Of a DNA stretch of 64,000 bases, positions 1 through 53,551 are shown one piece after another. The translations under genes and the position numbers were made by a program. Numbering within the stretch: position 1 is the stretch's first letter; every line of letters begins with the position of its first letter. The stretch spans positions 1,135,241 to 1,199,240 of the forward strand of contig JAUJMO010000001.1 in assembly GCA_030446805.1 (NCBI GenBank). Direction: 5' to 3'. The notes beneath the pieces are model-generated. The model ran no database searches. It was given only the letters and a program-made list of their open reading frames with translations, and was not told the DNA's origin. This DNA is from Caulobacteraceae bacterium (lineage in GTDB: Bacteria; Pseudomonadota; Alphaproteobacteria; Caulobacterales; Caulobacteraceae).

Positions 1-2373
1 GCCGAAGTCGAGTACCATCCGCACAACTCGCCCATGATCTGGGTCAAATTCCCCGTCGTGGACCCGGGCGACATGGCCCCGCGCCTGCATCAGGTCGGCG
101 CCGACGCCCCTGATGTAGTGGCAGACCCGGCTGCGGTCGGCGCCAGCATCGTCATCTGGACCACCACGCCCTGGACCATCCCGGGCAACCGCGCCATCGC
201 CTACGGCCCGGCCATCACCTACGGCCTTTACCTGATCGAGAGCGTCGAGACCGGGGGCGAGCTCGAGTCCTACGCCCGCGCCGGCGAGCGGCTGATCGTG
301 GCCGACAAGCTGGCCGAGGAGGTCCGGGCCGCCGCGCGGATCACCAGTTGGCGCCGCCTCCAGCCCGTCGACCCCGGCCCCCTCACCTGCGAGCACCCCT
401 TGGCCGGGGCCGACCCCGGCTATCGCTACCCCGTGCCGCTCCTGCCCGGATCCCATGTCACGGACGAGGCGGGCACAGGCTTCGTCCACACCGCTCCCAG
501 CCATGGCCAGGAGGACTTTCAGGTCTGGCTGGCGTCCGGCCGGCGCGACGTGCCCGACATGGTCGACGAGGACGGGGCCTACTTCCCCCACGTGCCCTTG
601 TTCGGCGGCTTGGCCGTCCTGGAGACCGAAGGCAAGAAAACCGGCAAGTTCGGCCCGGCCAACGGCGCGGTGACCGAGGCCCTGATCGCCCAAGGCAAGC
701 TGCTGGCCCGCGGCCGCCTGGAGCACAGCTATCCGCATAGCTGGCGCTCCAAGGCTCCGGTCATCTACCGCAACACGCCTCAGTGGTTCATCCGGCTTGA
801 TGAAGCCTCGGACGAACGCGTCGAAACGCTGCGCGAATTGGCCCTCGCCGGTATCGACCGGACGAAGTTCGTCCCCGACGCCGGCCGCAACCGCATCCGC
901 GGCATGGTCGAAGGCCGTCCTGACTGGTTGATCAGCCGCCAGCGCGCCTGGGGCACCCCGATCGCCATGTTCGTTGAGCGCGACACCGGCGAACCCCTGC
1001 GCGATGAGGCCGTCAACGCCCGCATCCAGGAGATCATCCGCGCCGAGGGCGCCGACGCCTGGTTCACCCGCCCCCCCGCTGACTTCCTGCCCGGTTACGA
1101 TCCGACCCACTACGAGCGCATCGAAGACATCCTCGACGTCTGGTTCGACAGCGGCTCCACCCACGCCTTCACCCTGGAAGGGCGCCCCGCCTCCCGCTGG
1201 CCGGCCGACCTCTACCTCGAAGGCTCCGACCAGCATCGCGGTTGGTTCCAGGCCTCCCTGCTGGAAGCCTGCGCCACCCGAGGCGCCCCGCCCTTCCGCG
1301 CAGTGCTCACCCACGGCTTCACGCTTGATGAGCAGGGCGAGAAGATGAGCAAGTCCAAGGGAAACACCGTGGCTCCTCAGACGGTGATCAAGGACAGCGG
1401 CGCCGAGATCCTCCGCCTGTGGGCCGCATCGGTCGACTACGAGGACGACCAGCGCATCGGCAAGACCATCCTCCAGACGGTCACAGACAGCTACCGCAAG
1501 CTCCGCAATACGGTGCGTTACCTGCTGGGCGCGCTGGCCGACTTCACCGACGCCGAGCGCATCGAGCTCGAGCGGATGCCCCCGCTGGAGCGCTACATCC
1601 TCCACCGCCTCTGGGCCCTGGACGCCGAGGTTCGCGCCGCCTACGAGGCCTATCGTTTCTCCGACGTGATCCGCGCCCTGTCCGATTTCTGCGCCGGCGA
1701 CCTGTCGGCGCTCTTTTTCGACATCCGCAAGGACGCCCTCTACTGCGACCGCCCCGACAGCGAACGCCGCCGCGCTTGCCGCACGGTGATGGAGGCGGTC
1801 TTCGACCGGCTCACGGTCTGGCTGGCGCCCCTGCTGCCCTTCACCATGGAAGAGGCTTGGCGGACGCGCTTTCCCAGCGGTGGCAGCGTCTGCGCGCGGG
1901 TGTTCCCCCCCACGCCCGAGGCCTGGCGCAACGAGGCGGAGGCGGAGCGCTGGGCCAAGGTTGAGCAAGTGCTTGGGGCGGTGACCAGCGTTCTGGAGAC
2001 TCAGCGCCGGGAGAAGGCCATAGGATCGGCGCTGGAGGCCGCGCCGATCGTCCATCTGCCTTCGGACGACTTGCTGGCGGCCTTTGCAGGCCTGCAGGCC
2101 GAGGACGTGTTCCGAACCAGCCAAGCCCAGCTGAGAGGTCCGGGCGAAGCTGAACCGGGGCCGGCTTCCGTGACCGTGCAGCGGCCGCAGCTCCCGGAGC
2201 GGGGTATCGTGATCGAGCCGCTCAGAGCTGAAGGACTGAGATGCGCCCGCTCCTGGAAGGTCCTCCCCGAGGTCCGGCGCAATCTTGACCAGCACGGGCT
2301 TCCCCTCACCGACCGCGACCTGGACGCGGTTCGCTGGTGGGACGCTCACCACGCCCGCGGGCAAGCCGCATGA
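1..2373 (+). CDS. ileS: Isoleucyl-tRNA synthetase (5' end outside window)
   Basis: Class I aminoacyl-tRNA synthetase that charges tRNA-Ile in the cytoplasm. The reading frame is open from base 1, so the gene starts upstream; 790 residues are visible and roughly 150-180 N-terminal residues, including the HIGH motif, are missing. The CP1 editing domain is present (TTPWTIPGN, GTGFVHTAPSHG), then the tRNA-binding WFDSGS region, KMSKS at 1342-1356 and the anticodon-binding helical domain. The C-terminal region that carries a four-Cys zinc finger in many IleRS keeps only one Cys (GLRCARSWKVLPE); the other positions read Ser, Thr and Asp. The stop codon overlaps the lspA start as ATGA, so the two are translationally coupled. 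Confidence 0.97.
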   Translation, partial: AEVEYHPHNSPMIWVKFPVVDPGDMAPRLHQVGADAPDVVADPAAVGASIVIWTTTPWTIPGNRAIAYGPAITYGLYLIESVETGGELESYARAGERLIVADKLAEEVRAAARITSWRRLQPVDPGPLTCEHPLAGADPGYRYPVPLLPGSHVTDEAGTGFVHTAPSHGQEDFQVWLASGRRDVPDMVDEDGAYFPHVPLFGGLAVLETEGKKTGKFGPANGAVTEALIAQGKLLARGRLEHSYPHSWRSKAPVIYRNTPQWFIRLDEASDERVETLRELALAGIDRTKFVPDAGRNRIRGMVEGRPDWLISRQRAWGTPIAMFVERDTGEPLRDEAVNARIQEIIRAEGADAWFTRPPADFLPGYDPTHYERIEDILDVWFDSGSTHAFTLEGRPASRWPADLYLEGSDQHRGWFQASLLEACATRGAPPFRAVLTHGFTLDEQGEKMSKSKGNTVAPQTVIKDSGAEILRLWAASVDYEDDQRIGKTILQTVTDSYRKLRNTVRYLLGALADFTDAERIELERMPPLERYILHRLWALDAEVRAAYEAYRFSDVIRALSDFCAGDLSALFFDIRKDALYCDRPDSERRRACRTVMEAVFDRLTVWLAPLLPFTMEEAWRTRFPSGGSVCARVFPPTPEAWRNEAEAERWAKVEQVLGAVTSVLETQRREKAIGSALEAAPIVHLPSDDLLAAFAGLQAEDVFRTSQAQLRGPGEAEPGPASVTVQRPQLPERGIVIEPLRAEGLRCARSWKVLPEVRRNLDQHGLPLTDRDLDAVRWWDAHHARGQAA

Positions 2374-2999
2374 CCCCTCCCGTTCAGGATGACGCCTTGG
2401 CCACCCCTCCCGCTTTCCCTGGCGAAGGCGCGGCCCCAACGGTCCAACCCGGCGCCGGGGGTGCAGGCCCCGCCATGGACCCCGGCCTTCGTCGAGGGGA
2501 GCGGAAAGGAGGTGTGACCCGCCTCGGCGGCCGTGCTTACGCCCTTGCCCTTCTGGTCATCATCCTCGACCAGCTCAGCAAGTTCTGGGTGCTCGAGGTC
2601 TTCCGCCTTCCCGAGCGCGGCTCCGTGGAGCTTCTGCCCGTCCTTTCCCTCTCCATGGTCTGGAACCGGGGCGTCAGCTTCGGCCTGTTTCAGGCGGAGG
2701 ACGCGGGCCGCTGGATCCTGGCCGCGTTTTCGCTCGGGGTGGCCGTCATGCTGGCCTTGTGGGCCCGCAAGGCGGACCGTCCCGTCCTGGCCACAGCGCT
2801 GGGGCTCGTCATCGGCGGCGCGATCGGCAACCTGATCGACCGCGTGCGCCTGGGCGCGGTGGCCGACTTCATCGATGTCTCCGGTCTGGGCTTCTTCCCC
2901 TGGGTGTTCAACATCGCCGACAGCGCCATCAGCGTCGGCGTGATCCTGCTGATCCTTGACAGCCTGCTGCCTCAGGCGCGCGACCCGCGCCGGCCTTGA
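2370..2999 (+). CDS. lspA: Lipoprotein signal peptidase (signal peptidase II), with repeat-derived N-terminal extension
   Basis: Inner-membrane aspartyl protease that cleaves signal peptides of lipidated prolipoproteins. The core has the four expected helices with DQLSKFW, WNRGVSFGLF, GNLIDR, VADFID and FNIADSAI, the last two carrying the catalytic aspartates. The ATG at 2370 overlaps the ileS stop (ATGA), giving 209 residues, about 48 more than usual. Those 48 residues (Pro/Gly/Ala-rich, ending MDPGLRRGERKGG) are encoded by a dispersed palindromic repeat. A GTG at 2514 would give a normal 161-residue protein but has its AGGAGG only one base away. I annotate the coupled ATG; either start may be used. 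Confidence 0.93.
   Translation: MTPPVQDDALATPPAFPGEGAAPTVQPGAGGAGPAMDPGLRRGERKGGVTRLGGRAYALALLVIILDQLSKFWVLEVFRLPERGSVELLPVLSLSMVWNRGVSFGLFQAEDAGRWILAAFSLGVAVMLALWARKADRPVLATALGLVIGGAIGNLIDRVRLGAVADFIDVSGLGFFPWVFNIADSAISVGVILLILDSLLPQARDPRRP
2404..2512. repeat. Degenerate copy of a two-armed palindromic repeat inside the 5' end of lspA
   Basis: The left arm near 2404-2436 resembles the left arm of the element at 53420-53444, and the right arm near 2472-2512 (TGGACCCCGGCCTTCG, then GGAGCGGAAAGGAGG) resembles the element around 53523-53558. The arms are inverted relative to each other and each contains an internal hairpin with several mismatches. The copy is translated in frame as part of lspA. 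Similarity was judged by eye. Confidence 0.75.
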
Positions 3000-53419: not shown

Positions 53420-53551
53420 CCGCTCTCCCCGGCGAAAGCCGGGGCCCACGGCGCCGCCGCGCCTTAGCCGGAAATGATCGCGGGTTCCGCCCGACGATCG
53501 GATACTCGGGCCCGTCGCGGCCTGGACCCCGGCTTTCGCCGGGGAGAGCGG
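53420..53551. repeat. Two-armed palindromic intergenic repeat
   Basis: A 25-base arm at 53420-53444 is repeated in perfect inversion at 53527-53551. Each arm contains its own hairpin (CCCCGGCGAAAGCCGGGG). The central 82 bases are non-coding. The 232-base gap 53365-53596 between the VOC gene and rsmD holds nothing else. The same family, degenerate, occurs at about 2404-2512. It resembles BIME/REP-type elements of other proteobacteria and could also act as a bidirectional transcription barrier. Confidence 0.85.

Follow-up and report, generated by a model that had tools for sequence, protein, structure and literature searches.

The window, by which we mean the whole stretch of 64,000 nucleotides of Caulobacteraceae DNA analysed here, opens on the 3' part of ileS, the product of which has a C-terminus (DLDAVRWWDAHHARGQAA) similar to the ileS ends of relatives, and passes directly into lspA through an ATGA overlap of the ileS stop codon with the lspA start codon (Table 1). 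This overlap had been described in a first-pass annotation of the sequence and is confirmed. From ATG 2370 the lspA frame runs without a stop until 2997-2999 and encodes 209 residues, of which the match to Pfam Peptidase_A8 (PF01252) begins only at residue 59 (134.2 bits, cut-off 25; E = 4.8e-39). The product also matches TIGR00077 (117.8 bits, cut-off 73.95), LspA structures of other bacteria align from about residue 42-59 onward, and the (V/I)TRLG segment conserved in the family begins at GTG 2514, which is codon 49. The conserved core thus starts 48 codons past the coupled ATG, as had been noted.

Table 1. Features of the ileS-lspA junction in the window, with repeats of other families at the same junction in related genomes
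Feature	Position	Strand	Basis or remark
ileS reading frame (3' part; gene start probably upstream of the window)	34-2373	+	stop TGA 2371-2373
ATGA overlap (lspA ATG 2370-2372, ileS TGA 2371-2373)	2370-2373	+	same 4-nt overlap in many relatives
Codons 1-12 of lspA, MTPPVQDDALAT, native-type N-terminal tail	2370-2405	+	bases 1-22 without repeat match; short tails in relatives; identical in congener
Codons 13-48, repeat-derived, in lspA frame	2406-2513	+	genome matches, copy alignment, arm scores
5' repeat arm	2409-2438	+	23/30 to consensus
ATG at codon 36, second of the rival internal starts	2475-2477	+	no usable SD
3' repeat arm (reverse complement of 5' arm)	2476-2505	+	25/30 to consensus
AAAGGAGGTG, right end of repeat	2505-2514	+	complementary to usual 16S 3' tail
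GTG, rival start, codon 49	2514-2516	+	AGGAGG 1 nt upstream
Conserved LspA core (signal peptidase II), including stop codon	2514-2999	+	profile and structure matches
Well-preserved intergenic-type repeat copy	53420-53551		BLAST, fold
Junction repeat CCTTCTCCCCTTGCGGGAGAAGG			G116, G092, G079
Junction repeat TCCTCCTCGATGGGGGA			G086, G101
Junction repeat CCTCTCCCA..GGGAGAGG			G050, G121, G106, G131
Junction repeat TGTCATCCCGG..CCGGGATGACA			G097; related-looking one in G013

Within the lspA frame, ahead of this core, sits a decayed but genuine copy of a palindromic repeat that occurs genome-wide. When the window was scored against a 30-nt arm consensus (CCCGCTCTCCCCGGCGAAAGCCGGGGTCCA) derived from other copies, the best arm score apart from the junction and the copy at 53 kb was 20, and when the 64 kb window was resampled 100 times under an order-3 Markov model, neither an arm at 23/30 or better nor a facing pair of arms appeared. 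Queried by BLAST with the 53 kb copy, the genome returned the junction (E = 4.9e-7, 37 nt, 89%), multiple alignment brought the junction copy into register with eight others, and its right end, GCGGAAAGGAGG, is common to the 53 kb copy and one further copy. One or two arms are found at about 36 distinct genome sites, so the other copies on which the first-pass reading depended do exist. The divergence of both arms from the consensus might suggest instead that a GC-rich palindrome arose by chance in an ordinary N-terminal extension with no repeat involved, but the Markov resampling, on which we reject a chance match, the many genomic sites and the absence of such an extension from the ileS-coupled lspA of relatives make this extremely improbable. 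In-frame capture of a repeat copy in lspA, with the frame kept open, is supported.

The extent of the captured segment is smaller than had been proposed. Both arms do occur, as claimed, and are correctly ordered and oriented; the claim that all 48 codons match them does not hold, with about 36 being repeat-derived, and the repeat does not lie just after the start codon, since some 12 native-type codons come first. The first 22 bases of the junction have no match elsewhere in the genome (matches beginning before base 35 have E >= 0.03) and codons 1-12 resemble native tails, which together place the insertion site at about codon 13. The junction copy has since decayed, its arm-to-arm identity being 20/30 and its RNA fold z-score -1.7 vs -5.7 for the 53 kb copy. 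A conserved RNA structure is without support, because a decaying palindrome implies that RNA structure is not the thing kept; a search of the window against Rfam at gathering score returned no matches.

Of 60 Caulobacteraceae genomes, 28 have matches to the query repeat. The other two-arm copies analysed (n = 21) span 92-152 bp, 87 of their 126 frames (six per copy) are open, and GANTC is present in five of them and absent from the junction copy. Six further ORFs with Pfam domains (cyclophilin, PurF-type GATase, UbiA, DUF599, deaminase and Zn-protease) also cover a copy; as the repeat always lies upstream of the domain and the start is uncertain, none counts as a second clear capture. The cyclophilin copy (L181:1050-1158; G000:C1:313449-313557) stands in an open frame with a signal-peptide-like stretch immediately after the repeat, in a region strongly different in the congener, and is a possible second in-frame capture. 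Another copy (L158:1078-1187; G000:C1:186077-186186) immediately precedes the gene of a PurF-like amidotransferase and has an SD-like GGGAGGAG adjoining its end, and another (L175:1066-1168; G000:C4:579765-579867) occupies the short gap between two genes that we take, by eye from their sequence, to be gcvH and gcvPA, another tight operon junction. The L002 and L004 copies were dropped as candidate sources of an SD for a gene, the ORFs behind them having only 28 and 12 codons.

Among about 50 other members of the family, no overlap-coupled lspA has more than 26 residues ahead of the conserved core; coupled relatives have 0-26 residues there, as in MPK-VTRLG, MR-VTRNG and MTEAPAARPPRG-ITRLG, and relatives without the repeat are also without the 48-residue extension. 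ATGA or near-ATGA joins of ileS and lspA occur in many of these genomes, and from this sharing the coupled lspA start is probably ancestral. The single congener, in a genus comparison of two genomes (the other relatives, from a GTDB scan, being at most 64% identical), carries the 48-codon extension too, with no indels, and keeps the ATGA overlap and the open frame, so that the insertion predates the split of the two species. The junction of a relative, used as query in a search of plasmids, gave no match. We also observed that synonymous divergence between the congeners is 0.047 in the lspA core (2514-2996) vs 0.158 in ileS, or about one third.

Comparison of the congeners also bears on whether the segment is translated. 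The repeat part (108 bp) differs by eight substitutions and no indels, and in the lspA frame five of these changes are synonymous and three nonsynonymous, where 77 of the 108 sites are nonsynonymous (p about 0.05, which is marginal for two genomes and eight substitutions). None of the other five frames has so low a share of nonsynonymous changes, although a reverse frame with stops in it is close behind at four synonymous and three nonsynonymous. Over 1514 bp of orthologous copies elsewhere there are 138 substitutions and 28 indel events; the lack of indels in 108 bp is suggestive of coding, and alone is not significant. GC by codon position is 0.89/0.75/0.61 in the repeat segment vs 0.71/0.44/0.90 in the core, so that the segment is not coding-like in composition, as is expected of captured non-coding DNA. 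Given the proportion of open frames among the copies, an open in-phase insertion would arise by chance in roughly 23% of cases (1/3 x 0.7) and is unremarkable in this GC-rich repeat family.

The rival start codons yield different LspA N-termini. Judged from the sequence, lspA probably starts at ATG 2370, which has no SD but is coupled to ileS; about 75% of starts in Caulobacter crescentus are without an SD (PMC4117421). The same prevalence somewhat weakens the argument from a misplaced SD that can be raised against GTG 2514, as under SD-less initiation no start would depend on a well-placed SD. The first-pass annotation had offered takeover by this GTG (in GUGUG 2512-2516), driven by the AGGAGG of the repeat, as an alternative in which the 48 codons would form a leader, untranslated or inconsequential. 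The repeat does supply AAAGGAGGTG, a near-perfect SD, as the complement of the usual alphaproteobacterial 16S 3' tail, adjoining the GTG; core homology begins about there, and in genus g22 lspA often begins right before the core, behind a different repeat. However, AGGAGG stands only 1 nt away and the stretch of complementarity extends into the start codon itself, which is too close and leaves the takeover weak, both congeners have kept the ATGA overlap and the open frame, and in the lspA frame the substitutions fall preferentially on synonymous sites. GUG starts that follow a short spacer are inefficient in E. coli, 2 nt being the shortest tested (PMC9841429). We regard takeover by GTG 2514 as unlikely, and a repeat-derived tail as the likelier outcome. 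A start at ATG 2475, inside the repeat, would be in frame and would leave a 13-residue tail (MDPGLRRGERKGG) ahead of the core, similar in length to those of relatives, but the codon falls at the palindrome's 3' arm and has only a 4-nt partial SD match (GGTG), poorly spaced, and such a start appears very unlikely.

With ATG 2370 as the start, our reading of the locus, which we hold to be probable as a whole, is that lspA received a copy of a dispersed palindromic repeat (here about 100-110 bp) behind about codon 12 in a common ancestor of the two known species, and that length and open frame would have been retained after the insertion. Ribosomes ending ileS would restart at the overlapping ATG and read through the repeat, so that LspA would gain a 48-residue N-terminus, presumably on the cytoplasmic side, with about 36 residues derived from the repeat. 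This tail would be rich in Pro and Gly, basic beside the membrane and probably disordered, with the enzyme core unchanged. The insertion may have been tolerated because the N-terminus of LspA varies in length, and its effect would be neutral, there being no sign of selection for a function. Structure prediction was of low confidence over residues 1-50 and returned a normal, well-folded LspA core from residue 51, which is compatible with a tolerated, flexible tail.

We consider the lspA case a new instance of a known phenomenon, the capture of repeats inside protein genes; literature searches for this repeat or for the LspA extension returned nothing specific. A close likeness in kind is with the Rickettsia palindromic elements (RPE; Ogata et al. 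2000) and the Wolbachia palindromic elements, which are described as short, dispersed elements with open frames that are fused in frame in conserved protein genes, in 19 genes in Rickettsia, with neutral or slightly harmful effect (PMC2229807). Like an RPE, the lspA copy belongs to a dispersed palindromic family of the same genome, lies in frame in a conserved gene and is absent from relatives, whereas its host is a GC-rich member of the Caulobacteraceae of free-living type with one clear in-frame case. Enterobacterial RU-1, RU-2 and RU-3 repeats are likewise fused to ORFs, where the translated repeat forms a protein end, N-termini included (Delihas 2007, PMC2759123); these differ in size class and host, and the gene affected here, lspA, encodes an otherwise well-conserved enzyme and is coupled to ileS. 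The Caulobacter CerM-associated intergenic repeats (CIR; Chen and Shapiro 2003) of Caulobacter and relatives are also dispersed palindromes of about 110 bp, and are reported with GANTC, with stops in all six frames and as never intragenic (PMC2229807). By these traits the present family is not CIR, as GANTC occurs in few copies and most frames are open. REP elements share the dispersed palindromic character, but those with a REP-associated tyrosine transposase (RAYT) are 20-40 bp long, unlike the 92-152 bp, long-armed elements here, and a REP/RAYT origin is rejected, as neither of the two genomes of the genus contains a PF01797 (REP-type) Y1 transposase, for which control genomes gave matches. 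The mobility of the repeat is only inferred.

The ileS-lspA junction is a recurrent landing site for palindromic repeats. At least four other families, all unlike that of the window, occupy it in several Caulobacteraceae (L199, L201, L216, L214, L213, L206, L202, L215, L209, L200, L041 and L186), and in these genomes the ileS stop precedes the repeat. In several of them lspA begins behind the repeat, for example with (M)LKITRLG, and this arrangement, found in several related genera, was counted against the ATG 2370 reading. In G101, G086, G116, G092 and G079 a longer frame that crosses the repeat is open too, but lspA has a short start past the repeat; of the genomes examined, those of the window's genus alone have a repeat within an ATGA-coupled frame. 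There is a slim possibility that the capture has a regulatory role, in which ileS-coupled ribosomes, about to synthesise the first transmembrane helix, would pause at the repeat-supplied anti-SD complement (2505-2514), and the junction would recruit repeats of several families as a means of setting the LspA/IleS ratio. Internal SD sites in Caulobacter crescentus are reported to correlate with ribosome pauses (PMC4117421).

Our findings extend in-frame repeat capture to a GC-rich genus of the Caulobacteraceae and to a membrane enzyme of lipoprotein processing. The presence of at least five repeat families at one operon junction, that of the window included, provides a natural series on how repeats alter the coupling of neighbouring genes, and this series may matter more than the lspA capture itself.
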